64,000 bases of DNA from Psychrobacillus sp. FSL K6-4046 (GTDB lineage: Bacteria > Bacillota > Bacilli > Bacillales_A > Planococcaceae): contig NZ_CP152020.1 of NCBI RefSeq assembly GCF_038624605.1, forward strand, positions 3,527,312-3,591,311. Reading direction: 5' to 3'. Shown here one piece after another: positions 4,268 to 54,974 of the stretch (the stretch's first letter is position 1; each line of letters starts with the position of its first letter). The notes beneath the pieces are model-generated. The model saw nothing but the letters and a program-made list of their open reading frames with translations. It was not told where the DNA came from and ran no database searches. A program made the position numbers and the translations under genes.

Positions 4268-6400
4268 ATGAAATTTTTAGCTAACCTGGTGACACGCCAT
4301 TATAAAGTCACTTTGGGAGTTTGGATCATCCTGTTTGTGGCTCTTGCTTTTTTTGCATTACGTCTTCCATCTTTATTGGAGGGTGACGGCTTTAAAATGG
4401 ACGGAGAACACCAGCAAGTAATGGATGAGCTAACTGAAACCTTTGATTTACCAGCCGAGACACTCTTCATCGTATTCGATCAAACATCCGATCAAACAAT
4501 ACAAGATACGTTAGATGATATAGAAAACTTAAAAATAGTGAAAGATATCCAATCACCCTTGGAGGATTCTACTCTCTATAAGGAAAATGTATCATACGCA
4601 ATGTTGCACTTTAACACGGATACCGAGAACATGTCAGAGGTAGTTGATGACATTCGTCAATCTATCGGAAACGAAAAGGGTGTCACTTTAACTGGGGCTG
4701 CCGCCATCAATAAAGATATTAACACGGCAAGCCAAAAGGACTTGGCTAGTGCAGAAGCAATCGGTCTTCCAATAGCATTGGTCGTTCTGCTCCTTGCATT
4801 TGGAAGTGTAGTTGCCGCTTTGGTACCAATTGCTGTGGGTATTGTCACAGTAGTTTCAGCACTTGGAGTCATGACATTCTTTGGCGAAGCCATGGATTTA
4901 TCTATTTTCGTCCTTAACATAGTTCCAATGCTCGGGCTTGCGCTAAGTATTGATTTTGCTTTATTACTAATTAATCGTTATAAAGAAGAGCTTACCGAAA
5001 AGTCCGTTGTAGAGGCTGTCCAAGTCTCTATAAAAACAGCTGGTCGCTCTATTATTTTCTCTGCACTTTGTGTATTTATTGGACTTGGAGCCATGTTTGT
5101 ATTAGAAGTAGAGATCTTTCAAAATATAGCTCTTGGTGGTATGCTTGTCGTCGCTATGGCAGTATTGGGATCCATTACCCTATTACCAGCCTTACTGATG
5201 GTATTAGGTGATCGTATTAATAAATGGACTATCTTGCGTGTGAAGCCTGGTGCCTCTACCAAGTGGAGAAACTTTGCCTCCTTTGTGATGAAGCGACCTG
5301 TTACTTTAATCATTGTAGCTTTTGTGTTGCTCGGGATAGGTATAATCCCGGTAAAAGAAATGACATTAACCATCCCATCAGTAGAATCTCTACCTAAGGA
5401 CTATGATTCCCGTCAAGCTTATGAAGTGATGGAGGATGAGTTTAATATGGGGGACCAGTCTACGATTTACGTGGTGGCTGATCGACCAGGTGGCTGGGAA
5501 AATACAGATGGCCTAAACACTATGAAAAATTTAGAAGAGCAGCTTTTGAAGGATCCTGATGTTAAATCAGTAGATACTGTCTTTTCGGCTAGTGAAATAC
5601 CTACCGTCGAACAGTGGGAGCAAAGCATGTTGATTCCAGAGGTTTCAGGTCAGCTCACCCCACTATTGGATACCTTTGTCCAAGGTGACAAATTAATGAT
5701 TCCAGTTACATTAGGACTTAATGGCTCATCTGATGAAGCACAGGATTGGGCAAGAGAATGGGCTGATAAAGACGTTGGCACAGATATTTTATTAGGTGGT
5801 CAACCTAAGTTTAATCAAGAAATATTTGATGAAATTTTTGATAAGGTCGGGATATTGCTAGGAATAATATTGGGCTCTACCTTTATCATTTTAACCATCG
5901 CCTTCCGTTCCGTGCTTATACCTTTAAAAGCAATTATTATGAATGTAATTGGTTTAGCCTCCACGTTTGGCATACTTGTTTATATATTTCAGTATGGCCA
6001 TTTTGGTTTAGAGGAAACGACCATTGCCTTAATAATTCCAGTCATTGTTTTCAGTTTAGTCTTTGGGCTAAGTATGGACTATGAGGTATTCCTCATCTCC
6101 CGTATTCAAGAGGAGTATATGAAACATCACAATAATACGAAAGCAACTGTAGATGGATTAACCTCCACTAGTAAAATAATTACCTCTGCAGCATTAATTA
6201 TGATTGTTATCACCGGTGCATTTGCCTTCACAGAGGTTATGCCAGTCAAGCAAATTGGTATCGGAATAGCTATAGCCGTGGCTATCGATGCTTCAATTAT
6301 CCGCTTACTATTAGTTCCAAGCTTGATGAAACTTTTTGGTAAATGGAACTGGTGGCTACCTTTTAGAAAGGGACCTTACAAAGCGAAAAACTTCCATTAA
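4268..6400 (+). CDS. MMPL/RND-family transporter, YdfJ-like
   Basis: This 710-residue membrane protein has the two-fold MMPL layout: an N-terminal helix, an extracytoplasmic loop (about 35-165), five to six helices, then a second helix (about 345-365), a second loop and another helical set. The 'LSIDFALLLINRYKEEL' and 'LSMDYEVFLISRIQEEY' segments carry the paired Asp-Tyr/Phe residues that mark the proton-relay helix 4 of each half. Relatives export lipids or hydrophobic compounds using the proton gradient. ATG 4268 is preceded by AAGGAGG. It is monocistronic; the substrate cannot be read from the sequence. Confidence 0.9.
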   Translation: MKFLANLVTRHYKVTLGVWIILFVALAFFALRLPSLLEGDGFKMDGEHQQVMDELTETFDLPAETLFIVFDQTSDQTIQDTLDDIENLKIVKDIQSPLEDSTLYKENVSYAMLHFNTDTENMSEVVDDIRQSIGNEKGVTLTGAAAINKDINTASQKDLASAEAIGLPIALVVLLLAFGSVVAALVPIAVGIVTVVSALGVMTFFGEAMDLSIFVLNIVPMLGLALSIDFALLLINRYKEELTEKSVVEAVQVSIKTAGRSIIFSALCVFIGLGAMFVLEVEIFQNIALGGMLVVAMAVLGSITLLPALLMVLGDRINKWTILRVKPGASTKWRNFASFVMKRPVTLIIVAFVLLGIGIIPVKEMTLTIPSVESLPKDYDSRQAYEVMEDEFNMGDQSTIYVVADRPGGWENTDGLNTMKNLEEQLLKDPDVKSVDTVFSASEIPTVEQWEQSMLIPEVSGQLTPLLDTFVQGDKLMIPVTLGLNGSSDEAQDWAREWADKDVGTDILLGGQPKFNQEIFDEIFDKVGILLGIILGSTFIILTIAFRSVLIPLKAIIMNVIGLASTFGILVYIFQYGHFGLEETTIALIIPVIVFSLVFGLSMDYEVFLISRIQEEYMKHHNNTKATVDGLTSTSKIITSAALIMIVITGAFAFTEVMPVKQIGIGIAIAVAIDASIIRLLLVPSLMKLFGKWNWWLPFRKGPYKAKNFH

Positions 6401-49410: not shown

Positions 49411-49611
49411 TTATTTAGAAAATTATAGAATTCTGCACCTGTGGATAGATTGATGTCTAGCTTCGGCGCCTTGCCCCTCGGGATCAAATGGGAAAATACT
49501 GCTCCTGCGCAAGCTCGTCGCAAACAAGAGCGTTTGCGGTGGATGAGGGACTGCCTCCTCGCATTTTCCCATTTGCCTGTCGGGGCAGAGATAGGCGCCT
49601 GCGCTTTTCTC
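49411..49611 (-). repeat. Structured intergenic repeat R1, copy 2
   Basis: On the minus strand it runs from AGAAAAGCGCAGGCGCC to the AT-rich tail after 'CCACAGGTGCAG', closely matching copy 1 over its full ~200 bp. Arms CAAATGGGAAAAT and ATTTTCCCATTTG pair over ~80 bp. Confidence 0.8.
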
Positions 49612-49773
49612 GATGTCTAGCTCCACCGCCTTGCCCCTCGGGGTCAAATGGGAAAATACTGCTCCTGCGCAAGCTCGTCGCAAACAAGAGCGTTTGCGGT
49701 GGCTGAGGGACTGCCTCCTCGCATTTTCCCATTTGCCTGTCGGGGCAGGGATAGGCGCCTGCGCTTTTCTTGT
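49612..49773 (-). repeat. Structured intergenic repeat R1, copy 3 (tandem with copy 2)
   Basis: Head-to-tail with copy 2 and nearly identical over ~160 bp, but it lacks the tail beyond 'GCTAGACATCG'. It begins directly at the dapL stop codon. All ORFs reported across 49423-49830 are artefacts of this repeat. Confidence 0.8.
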
Positions 49774-51754: not shown

Positions 51755-51805
51755 TGATTACAGAGAGATTGCAGGTGCCAGGCACCTGCAATCTCTCTGT
51801 AATCA
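51755..51805. repeat. 51-bp perfect palindrome
   Basis: Arms of 25 bp (TGATTACAGAGAGATT... to ...AATCTCTCTGTAATCA) meet at GGTGCC-A-GGCACC. There is no mismatch and a 1-nt centre. It lies alone in the 336-bp gap between dapH and the TAXI gene, ~130 bp from the former. No U-run, so it is not an ordinary terminator; it resembles REP-type elements. Confidence 0.85.
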
Positions 51806-51962
51806 AACCTTAAATATCTGAAAATACTGATATTTAGTTGTAAAATTTTAGATTAAAAGTATAATATTAATAATCATCTACTTAAAATGACAATTATATT
51901 GTTGTTTTTAATTTTGAAAACGCTGTCATTGAGATGATAATAATCCTTTGGGGGGAGAGAAA

Positions 51963-52961
51963 ATGAAGAAGAAAAGTTTTAGCATTATTTTGTTTATCAC
52001 AGTTTTAGCATTGTTTATGGCTGGATGTAGTGGGGGTAAGCCAAATATTGCAATTGGGCCACCTGCTAGTGAAACTAACTCTGTTTCTAAGCTAATTTTA
52101 GATGCATATGGAATTACAGACGATGATTACAAGGCTTATCAGGAAGGATTCGGAGATGCTGCTGATGGTGTTCAGGATGGAAATATTGATATTTCTATTG
52201 GTATTCTTGGCCTCCCTGCTGCTAGTATTGAGAGCTTGCAGAATTCTGCCGGAGATGTAGTAATGATGAGCTTATCTGATGATGCAATTTCTTATATCGA
52301 AGAGAATAGTGGCTATAGACGTCACACTATACCTAAGGACACATACGACTTTTTGGATTCCGATGTAGAAACGGTTACAGCGTACGCCATTTTAATGGGA
52401 AGTACGGATACGATTGATGAAGAACTTGGGTATGAGCTAACTAAGATCATGATTGAAAATGCCAATGAAAATACACATGCTCAGGCAAAACAAATGATTT
52501 TAGAAAATGCGCTAAATGGAGCTGAGGGGCTTCCAATTCATCCTGGAGCTAAACGTTACTATGAGGAACAGGGTCTTACTGTAGACAATCCGGTTGCTGA
52601 GCTGACTGCTGATAAAAGCAATCGAAAAAATGATTTTATACTAGGCACCGGAAGCCAAGGCGGCACTTATTATCCACTAGGTGGAGAGATGGCAAGCATT
52701 TGGAACAAACATATAGAAGGATTTAACTTAACGAATACAGAAACTGGAGCATCCGTAGAAAATCTATCCAGTATTCGAGATGGAAACATGGATTTAGGTA
52801 TGTCTGTACATGTGCCAGCATTACAAGCAGTAAATGGTGAGGCTGCATTTGAAGGACATGAGGTTCCGAACGCCGCTTTTATTGGTCATATTTATCCAGA
52901 GGTTATTCAAATTGTTACACGTGAAAGCTCCGATATTAAAAGCTTAGACGATGTAAAATAA
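51963..52961 (+). CDS. TAXI-family TRAP solute-binding lipoprotein, circularly permuted
   Basis: Residues 1-22 of this 332-residue protein are a lipoprotein signal ('FMAGC'). Residues 25-~219 match the usual C-terminal two thirds of TAXI proteins, from the hinge 'GK.NIAIGPPASETNSV' to 'LPIHPGAKRYYEEQGL'. Residues 223-332 match the usual N-terminal third, from 'NDFILGTGSQGGTYYPLGGE' to 'IKSLDDVK', where the stop falls exactly at the point the other block normally begins. Total content is complete but order is swapped. GGGGGGAG fixes ATG 51963. It is followed 42 bp later by the TRAP permease, its expected partner. Ligand unknown (TAXI proteins often bind Glu/Gln or carboxylates). Confidence 0.88.
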   Translation: MKKKSFSIILFITVLALFMAGCSGGKPNIAIGPPASETNSVSKLILDAYGITDDDYKAYQEGFGDAADGVQDGNIDISIGILGLPAASIESLQNSAGDVVMMSLSDDAISYIEENSGYRRHTIPKDTYDFLDSDVETVTAYAILMGSTDTIDEELGYELTKIMIENANENTHAQAKQMILENALNGAEGLPIHPGAKRYYEEQGLTVDNPVAELTADKSNRKNDFILGTGSQGGTYYPLGGEMASIWNKHIEGFNLTNTETGASVENLSSIRDGNMDLGMSVHVPALQAVNGEAAFEGHEVPNAAFIGHIYPEVIQIVTRESSDIKSLDDVK

Positions 52962-53003: not shown

Positions 53004-54974
53004 ATGAAAGATCAGCAACCTGTAAATGCGCAAGAAATATTGGAAAAATACGATAAAGAAAATCAATTCCGAACAAATATTGGAAAGTGGGCATGGGTCG
53101 TTACCTTTTTAGGTGTAGCCTTAACCGTATTCCATCTATATACTGCCTACTATGGAACTTTACCCACTCAAAAACAAGGAGCCGTCCATGTAGGAACTGC
53201 TCTCGGAGTTATTTTTCTGTTGTACCCATTTAAAAGAGATTTGCTAAAAACACAAAAAAATATCCCCTGGTATGACATTGTACTTGCCTTTACTGCGATG
53301 TATGTGACCTATCATAAAATATTCTTTTTTGATTCAATTTTACAGAGCAGAATTTCCGGATATAGCATACCTGATGTAATTATCTCCATCCTTGGGATTT
53401 TTCTCGTCCTGGAAGCGACCAGAAGAACGGTTGGTTTGCCAATCGTCATAGTGGCTTTAGTAGCCATACTTTATGCTATCTTCGGAAATTTTGTCCCTAC
53501 TCAAATCCTTTCACATCCTGGATTTTCGATTGAGCGAACCGCTACTGCACTTTGGTACAAGGAAAGTGGAATCTTCGGCACCCCAGTTCAAATTTCAGCA
53601 AAGTTCATATTCCTCTTTCTATTTTTTGGCGTAATGCTCGTACAAACAAATGTAGGGAAATTCTTCAATGATTTAGCCTTTTCCTTAACAGGAAGATATA
53701 CAGGCGGTACAGCAAAAACAGCAGTTGTAGCGAGTGCACTGCAAGGAACTATTTCAGGGAGCTCCGTTGGTAATACGGTGGCAACAGGGTCCTTCACCAT
53801 TCCTATGATGAAGAAAGCAGGATTCAAGCCAGAATTTGCTGGTGCAACTGAAGCTGCTTCATCTACCGGCGGTCAAATTATGCCTCCTATGATGGGTGCA
53901 GCAGCATTTATTATGATGGAGATTTTAGGTGTATCCTACGGGGCTATTATGTTGGCGGCTATTATTCCAGCTATTCTTTATTTTACAGGTATTTTTATCG
54001 GCACTCATTTTGAGGCAAAAAAACTGAAGATACATGGATTACCTAAGTCACAATTACCCTCTTTTACAAAGACAATGAAACGGAATTGGTATATGCTTTT
54101 ACCACTTTTCGTAATTACAGGAACCATTATTTACGGTTTTACTCCGCAACGTGCTGCACTGTTTGGAATAATCGCTGCCTTTCTAGTGAGCTTAATACGA
54201 AAAGAAACAAGAATGTCCTTTAAAAAGACAATACACGTTTTAGAGCAAGGTACAAGAGTTGCTCTTCCAGTTATAGCAGCGGTTGCTACAGCTGGAATTA
54301 TAGCTGGCATTGTAAGTATGACAGGCCTTGGCTCCAAATTTGCTGCAGGAGTGGTGGCCCTATCCAATGGTTATCTAATTCTTGCTCTCATATTCACTAT
54401 GATAGCTTGTATTATCTTAGGAATGGGATTACCTACTACAGCAAACTACGTAGTTACAGCTACTATTGCGGCTCCAGTTTTAATAAATGAATTCGGGGTA
54501 GCTCCAATTGCTGCTCATATGTTTGTATTCTATTTCGGAATAGTTGCGGATATCACTCCTCCTGTCTGTCTTGCAGCTTATGCGGGGGCAGGTATTGCAG
54601 GGGCAAACCCCTTTAAAACAGGTTTAAATGCAGTCAAACTAGCCATAGCAGCCTTTATCGTTCCATATATCTTTATCTATAATCCCATTTTAGTTATGGT
54701 GGATGTGGAACTGGTCAGTCTGATACTATCCTTGGCTGGTGCTTTAATTGGGATGGTTGCGGTAAGCAGCTCTATGATTGGCTATTTCATCAGATATTCA
54801 AGGTTTTGGGAGCGATCTGTCTTATTTGTAGCCGGGTTAATGCTTATTGTTCCTGAGGTTTTAAGTAGTGGGATTGGACTCGTGCTTATCATAGGAATTT
54901 GGTTCATACAAAAAAGAAGAACAGACGATGAACTTGAAATGGAAAGTCCAAGGTCTAGTCAAGCACTGTATTAA
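53004..54974 (+). CDS. TRAP transporter permease, fused 4TM-12TM type
   Basis: This 656-residue DctQM-fused permease uses an ion gradient to import organic solutes delivered by a TAXI binding protein. The N-terminal ~170 residues carry four helices (Q part). Then 'GTISGSSVGNTVATGSFTIPMMKKAG', 'STGGQIMPPMMGAAAFIM' and 'ADITPPVCLAAYAGAGIA' are DctM signatures (each quoted in part). Start ATG 53004 follows GATGAGGTGAGG. The protein looks intact, in contrast to the rearranged binding protein upstream, suggesting the system is still used. Confidence 0.92.
   Translation: MKDQQPVNAQEILEKYDKENQFRTNIGKWAWVVTFLGVALTVFHLYTAYYGTLPTQKQGAVHVGTALGVIFLLYPFKRDLLKTQKNIPWYDIVLAFTAMYVTYHKIFFFDSILQSRISGYSIPDVIISILGIFLVLEATRRTVGLPIVIVALVAILYAIFGNFVPTQILSHPGFSIERTATALWYKESGIFGTPVQISAKFIFLFLFFGVMLVQTNVGKFFNDLAFSLTGRYTGGTAKTAVVASALQGTISGSSVGNTVATGSFTIPMMKKAGFKPEFAGATEAASSTGGQIMPPMMGAAAFIMMEILGVSYGAIMLAAIIPAILYFTGIFIGTHFEAKKLKIHGLPKSQLPSFTKTMKRNWYMLLPLFVITGTIIYGFTPQRAALFGIIAAFLVSLIRKETRMSFKKTIHVLEQGTRVALPVIAAVATAGIIAGIVSMTGLGSKFAAGVVALSNGYLILALIFTMIACIILGMGLPTTANYVVTATIAAPVLINEFGVAPIAAHMFVFYFGIVADITPPVCLAAYAGAGIAGANPFKTGLNAVKLAIAAFIVPYIFIYNPILVMVDVELVSLILSLAGALIGMVAVSSSMIGYFIRYSRFWERSVLFVAGLMLIVPEVLSSGIGLVLIIGIWFIQKRRTDDELEMESPRSSQALY

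Follow-up and report, generated by a model that had tools for sequence, protein, structure and literature searches.

The question raised by this locus is whether a gene can be found in nature whose product is an ordinary transport receptor with its two parts in the wrong order. An earlier note on the window (the whole stretch of 64,000 nucleotides from Psychrobacillus sp. FSL K6-4046 analyzed here, part of a genome consisting of one contig of 3.886 Mb) proposed that one gene encodes a naturally circularly permuted TAXI-type solute-binding protein of a TRAP transporter. The basic features it described (the open reading frame and its frame, the stop codon after SLDDVK, the ribosome-binding site, the lipobox and the downstream permease) are all present, as judged by direct reading and by profiles, and are listed in Table 1. 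The protein has a lipoprotein-type signal that ends in MAGC, and its cysteine, nearly invariant (at least 90%) across 56 aligned relatives, would be the site of lipidation. A TTG start at 51948 was considered and set aside, since the ATG at 51963 has a better ribosome-binding site and yields the lipoprotein signal.

Table 1. Features of the permuted receptor gene and its surroundings (coordinates of the window).
Feature	Position	Strand	Basis
cre-like site TGAAAACGCTGTCA, 48 bases upstream of the start codon	51915..51928	+	exact consensus match
Ribosome-binding site GGGGGGAGAG	51950..51959	+	read directly
Circularly permuted TAXI-family TRAP solute-binding protein, 332 aa	51963..52961	+	profile matches, relatives
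Signal peptide and lipobox, last residue Cys22	51963..52028	+	read directly
C-block, residues 28-207, equivalent to the canonical TAXI C-terminal part	52044..52583	+	profile and structure-sequence matches
Linker, residues 208-222, from old C terminus to old N terminus	52584..52628	+	relatives, model
N-block, residues 223-332, equivalent to the canonical TAXI N-terminal part; SLDDVK, then stop	52629..52958	+	
Fused TRAP permease, 656 aa, unpermuted; only the start of DUF3394	53004..54974	+	profiles

The whole protein scores 226.6 bits against NCBIfam TIGR02122 (cut-off 84.35) and 208 bits against Pfam NMT1_3 (PF16868; cut-off 27), and both collections give it the ordinary family name. It has the fused TRAP permease partner expected of the TAXI family and lacks the canonical chain order. 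Residues 28-204 align to positions 143-320 of TIGR02122 and residues 223-332 to positions 30-140; with NMT1_3, residues 28-204 align to positions 113-289 and residues ~227-332 to positions 1-110. Both profiles thus give the swapped order, and the match in normal order that the earlier note had named as grounds for abandoning the claim was seen with neither. A canonical TAXI paralogue from the same genome served as control and matched TIGR02122 in one stretch (residues 5-334 to positions 4-320). All seven sequences of solved structures matched by the whole protein did so in two stretches, displayed in swapped order in three PDB alignments (8s4j, 9ibo and 1us4), and each block searched alone also retrieved TAXI structures (6 and 7 sequences). 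The claim that this is a TAXI protein with its two parts in swapped order is confirmed.

A misassembled or chimeric contig could equally give a permuted gene. No sign of such an error was found, and it is excluded because the same order occurs in independent genomes, leaving it next to impossible as an explanation. A search of the genus found a full-length collinear match in 8 of 19 genomes, at 80-100% identity (10 of the other 11 had matches only to the canonical paralogue, and one, G017, had no match). Permuted full-length proteins occur in 36 of the 261 genomes sampled from the family, and a separate search for block order, also of 261 genomes, gave the same 36. In a collection of named genomes, 74 loci were matched, 72 of them (L074-L145) with the permuted frame in one piece; the remaining two are a weak match in Roseibium (L147) and a frameshifted remnant in Marinobacter sp. 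ELB17 (L146). Two of the permuted loci (L138 and L144) lie on complete chromosomes, and Psychrobacillus sp. BL-248-WT-3 (L074) encodes a protein identical to the window's.

The 72 loci come from 50 Bacilli, 21 Gammaproteobacteria (20 Halomonadaceae and one Pseudomonas sp.) and one metagenome-assembled genome (MAG) of Castellaniella. The Bacilli belong to Psychrobacillus, Sporosarcina, Filibacter, Siminovitchia, Oceanobacillus, Virgibacillus, Ornithinibacillus, Lentibacillus, Pseudogracilibacillus, Bhargavaea, Paucisalibacillus and Bacillus, with one further Bacilli MAG. Of 398 genomes from the class, 21 had a match at 1e-40, 8 of them permuted and 13 canonical, and none of the 398 had both forms together (five candidates scored per genome). 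In the family to which the Halomonas genome G620 belongs, 19 of 201 sampled genomes had a permuted match and no further match reached 1e-45 (ten candidates scored per genome); the families of G543 and G270 had a permuted match in 2 of 2 and 1 of 11 (1e-50). At the level of the phylum (398 genomes, 1e-45), matches were confined to the genome of the window itself and a single canonical sister (G882), and 72,556 plasmid records contained no match at 1e-40. What had been presented as a single odd protein must therefore be seen as a broad clade, with one origin in the trees described below.

To characterize the junctions, I compared the 128 distinct open reading frames with both blocks in the fetched loci, of which 84 are permuted and 44 canonical. 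The best-scoring canonical frames read '..S(I)xDLKGK(K/R)(V/I)AIGP..' across the block boundary, and no more than 4 residues separate the blocks in 43 of the 44 (19 in the other). In permuted frames, the stop falls 0-3 residues past the matched N-block, and the blocks are joined by a linker that is indeed short, as the earlier note had it, but not the seven residues it quoted: 13-16 residues separate the matched blocks in all 84.

Chain order alone is equally compatible with permutation of one gene and with fusion of two halves from different TAXI genes. Trees were built from each half separately, after near-copies had been dropped (53 of the 84 permuted and 40 of the 44 canonical rows kept). 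The permuted rows form one clade in each tree (SH-aLRT 99). In the C-block tree, this clade joins 11 canonical sisters (L154-L163 and L196), with support of 98, and in the N-block tree it joins 10 of the same 11, with support of 89; the exception, L157, lies unresolved outside the group, which is what a fusion might produce. Identities to the window protein, however, are alike for the two blocks (51-58% for the C-block and 45-63% for the N-block of the sisters). Because both halves give a single permuted clade beside the same canonical subgroup, permutation of one gene is the reading to be preferred, and a fusion of two genes is quite improbable. The combined tree comprised 66 rows, made up of 27 permuted rows, 38 canonical rows and TtGluBP; the other 26 permuted rows were omitted, as were L172 and L173 for their long branches. 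It gave support of 100/99 to the permuted clade and 100/100 to that clade with the 11 sisters.

The rearrangement, then, behaves in the trees as a single event and probably happened once. A TAXI gene in an ancestor within the Bacilli would have been cut between '..SLDDLK' and 'GK.(N)IAIGP..', its old termini joined through a short ordered linker, with signal and lipobox now placed before the old C-terminal part. Tandem duplication followed by loss of the outer halves is a plausible route, but no remnant of the lost halves was found in the flanks of the window's gene (best E 1.7), nor was any intermediate form noticed.

Six gammaproteobacterial rows of the combined tree (five Halomonadaceae and one Pseudomonas sp.) are nested within the Bacilli, adjoining Bacillus chungangensis with support of 96/91. 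This nesting points to a likely transfer from Bacilli to Gammaproteobacteria. The G+C content of four gammaproteobacterial permuted genes is 50.8-63.3%, 1.9-3.2 points below that of their own loci. The Castellaniella row (L115) groups with Pseudogracilibacillus (100/97), so its binning may be wrong; if the contig is not misplaced, the row would represent a further transfer.

A rearranged gene might be a decayed one, and decay does occur, as the frameshifted remnant in Marinobacter attests (L146, 4856-5145, corresponding to residues 2-96; no permease match was found there). But the frames are open in all 72 of the loci L074-L145, and dN/dS has a median of 0.085 over residues 27-332, indicating purifying selection (57 pairs with dS of 0.1-1.5, drawn from 56 aligned sequences and related to each other). 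The value is 0.068 for the C-block, 0.094 for the N-block, 0.25 for the linker and 0.30 for the signal. Loss of function in the clade at large is thus extremely unlikely, and the functional appearance remarked on earlier is supported.

The binding pocket was examined by a motif mapping of my own, carried through TtGluBP onto the residue numbering of VcGluP (PMC11574862). Ten of the 12 mapped positions are invariant across the whole set of 53 permuted and 11 sister rows. The equivalents of Y45, S75 and E125 are kept in the window protein and in permuted and sister rows alike. The position of Q93 is V in all 53 permuted rows and also in the sisters, and that of Y200 is G. At the remaining two positions, the mix of residues is not the same in the two groups: the equivalent of Y46 is Y or F, and that of M201 is I/V in permuted rows but L/I in sisters. 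The main changes in the pocket precede the permutation, because the sisters share them. Glutamate-specific TAXI proteins are recognized by Y45 and Q93 together, and here Y45 is kept and the position of Q93 is V; the changes at Q93 and Y200 lower the case for glutamate as the ligand.

An AlphaFold2 model made from 56 permuted rows has a pLDDT of 90.9 and a pTM of 0.83, with values of 92-98 in the 10-residue blocks that cover the linker. Near its end, the chain forms a long strand (304-320), followed by a short helix, and then stops. The earlier note placed the cut at the crossing between the lobes. It does appear to lie near the hinge, given the lobe assignment on the model, but the break comes past the strand and the short helix rather than within the hinge strand. 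The top Foldseek match is the TAXI protein VCA0144 (9ibp), over 196 columns only, at an rmsd of 3.0 and a TM-score, normalized by query length, of 0.45. Apart from 9ibp, 48 further matches were listed, and these cover 305-355 columns at an rmsd of 6.2-13.3. Short coverage in the one case and high rmsd in the others are as expected if the chain order differs, and the model suggests that the whole fold may be equivalent in three dimensions to that of canonical TAXI proteins. A control model of a canonical TAXI pair, from an alignment of two rows only, failed, with a pLDDT of 44.7.

Permutation also affects how the receptor is tethered. The lipobox cysteine lies 4-18 residues before the first block in 83 permuted frames and 10-38 residues before it in 36 canonical ones; one permuted and eight canonical frames have no lipobox by the pattern used. 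The tether enters the N-block in canonical proteins and the C-block in permuted ones, so that the anchor would have moved to the other lobe. Were this so, the whole permuted clade would dock in a geometry that other TAXI-TRAP systems do not use, an idea that I consider unlikely. The Castellaniella protein (L115, 1953-2957) lacks a lipobox and has a secretion signal of the AHA type instead; provided that the record is correct, the permuted form can exist without an anchor.

The permease of the window begins 42 bases past the receptor's stop codon. It scores 732 bits against TIGR02123 (residues 29-637 to positions 1-609), also matches DctM, and matches DUF3394 over positions 2-48 of 181 only. 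DUF3394 is the family of the claw of VcGluQM. My guess from length is that the other permeases lack the claw as well, the DUF3394 scan having covered the window's permease. Complete permeases are 583-701 aa long in permuted loci and 646-717 aa in sister loci, and the two sets align from end to end, unpermuted.

A collinear fused permease of one cluster follows the receptor in 69 of the 72 loci. Two more have one, found as a piece at the contig end (L127) or by direct search (L137). The last, in Virgibacillus sp. MSJ-26 (L096), has no TRAP permease match within its 11.4 kb; there, the permuted receptor (4370-5368) is followed by a frame of 996 aa.

The absence of a permease match in L096 would fit a sensory receptor, instead of or besides a transport receptor, as would a gene of the methyl-accepting chemotaxis family found upstream in L132, L135, L140, L141 and L143 and elsewhere in L083 (Pfam was run on L132 only). 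With a permease directly next in 69 of 72 loci, the window's included, a sensory role is nevertheless very unlikely. The reading I favor, with considerable confidence, is that of a once-permuted, lipid-anchored TAXI receptor that feeds the adjacent fused TRAP permease. Judged from sequence, the protein would fold into two lobes, bind a small glutamate-like amino or oxo acid between them, and hand it to the permease for cation-driven uptake. As to the five loci with the chemotaxis family upstream, perhaps they also provide for chemotaxis to the same ligand.

Neighboring genes offer some clues to that ligand. Within the window, the neighbors are dapD, an M20 amidohydrolase gene and an ABC-F gene. 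Ten sister loci were examined, and six of them (L156, partial, L158, L159, L161, L167 and L168) have a class-III aminotransferase-like gene, as do the permuted loci L093, L109, L169 (partial, ~5 kb away) and L170 (Pfam was checked on three of these genes), and an RpiR-type regulator accompanies it in some (Pfam on L109 and L170). An aminotransferase neighborhood common to sisters and permuted loci fits a permutation that took place where the gene stood, although four sister loci lack the gene.

Of the 21 gammaproteobacterial loci, 14 contain a gene for 2-oxoadipate dioxygenase/decarboxylase (one member scored, 750.6 bits against a cut-off of 550, with the others 68-92% identical to it) and 11 a gene for 2-aminoadipate transaminase (one scored, 751.9 bits against 650; others 70-92%). 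Oceanobacillus limi (L110) has genes for PxpB and PxpA and a PxpC-like gene downstream, and PxpB/PxpC-like genes are recognizable at the level of domains in the four Siminovitchia-type loci L085-L088 (L085 scored), the PxpB-like gene of L085 having no NCBIfam match at 1e-50. Genes for an LL-diaminopimelate aminotransferase-like protein and a thiamine-pyrophosphate enzyme stand beside the permuted pair in L171 (8992-11846) and also in L090, L106 and L145; these, too, hint at an amino or oxo acid.

Taken with the precedent of other TAXI proteins, these neighbors suggest by analogy a glutamate-like amino or oxo acid as the class of substrate. For Halomonadaceae, 2-aminoadipate or 2-oxoadipate is a possible, if somewhat doubtful, candidate (no paper on a TRAP carrier for 2-aminoadipate was found among the literature matches listed), and some Bacilli perhaps take up 5-oxoproline or a relative. 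In L087 (2262-9224) and L088 (2219-9345), the genes for a canonical TAXI protein and its permease immediately precede the permuted pair; in the trees, the canonical protein of L087 belongs to a different TAXI branch.

The site upstream of the receptor gene is the sole exact match on the plus strand of the window to TGWAANCGNTNWCA, which I take to be the cre consensus of catabolite control. A cre-like site lies within 220 nt upstream in 16 of the 50 Bacilli loci, which are related to one another, as compared to 0.025 expected from shuffled sequences, and in none of the 21 gammaproteobacterial loci. The permuted gene may thus be subject to catabolite control.

Among known systems, canonical TAXI proteins such as VcGluP and TtGluBP (1us4) are the obvious comparison. 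Both blocks of the window protein match their family above cut-offs, but unlike them it is permuted, and with V and G at the positions of Q93 and Y200, as in its canonical sisters, glutamate is not assured. VcGluQM differs in its claw family, of which the window's permease has the beginning. Closest of all are the sisters themselves (L154-L163 and L196, all Bacillota), with the normal order, the same residue at 10 of 12 pocket positions, collinear permeases and, where a lipobox is present, a longer tether before the N-block.

Few solute-binding proteins seem to have been described as circularly permuted in nature, TpMglB-2 (Tp0684) of Treponema pallidum being a precedent (PMC4990184). It is a circularly permuted glucose-binding lipoprotein that is reported to bind its ligand and to have Gram-positive homologues, and its authors discuss anchoring as a possible reason for the permutation. 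Like the window protein, it is a tethered binding lipoprotein permuted in nature. The term 'Type Ic', used for proteins like MglB-2, suits the window protein as a permuted two-lobed binding protein (by block order, half-trees and a confident model) but not as a Type I/cluster B sugar binder of an ABC system, since it matches TAXI profiles only and has a TRAP permease for a partner; fold class, partner and cut all differ. The permuted part of TpMglB-2, moreover, has poor sequence similarity to its canonical counterpart, whereas both parts of the window protein align well.

Also of unusual architecture, and with a lipoprotein signal, is BP0403 of the Bordetella pertussis TAXI-GltS system, which, unlike the window protein, has extra domains before the TAXI domain (PMC12344293); 'permut' is absent from the main text of that paper. 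No report of a naturally permuted TRAP or TAXI protein was found in open-licence PubMed Central, among the matches listed, in keeping with the earlier note's belief that none had been described. The permuted TAXI protein is a real, naturally rearranged form, with MglB-2 as the only precedent found.

Since the permutation appears to go back to a single event and unpermuted sisters survive with nearly the same pocket positions and a related permease, matched pairs of receptors would allow a test of what chain order alone does to folding, closure, anchoring and docking. Engineered permutation for sensors is discussed in PMC3454389. Permuted TRAP receptors would be scaffolds with new termini for biosensors. 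Annotation based on profiles hides rearrangements of this kind.

Two other features of the window lie upstream of the receptor gene. A 160-bp unit is tandemly duplicated at 49452-49770 (2.0 copies, 96% matches), between a methyltransferase-like frame and the M20 amidohydrolase gene. A near-perfect hairpin at 51755-51805 has arms of 24 bp around the core GGTGCCAGGCACC (-43.9 kcal/mol, z -9.4). A 20-base piece of it recurs, with up to 2 mismatches, at 12 sites of the genome, six per strand and partly as overlapping pairs, and the hairpin is possibly a dispersed palindromic repeat.
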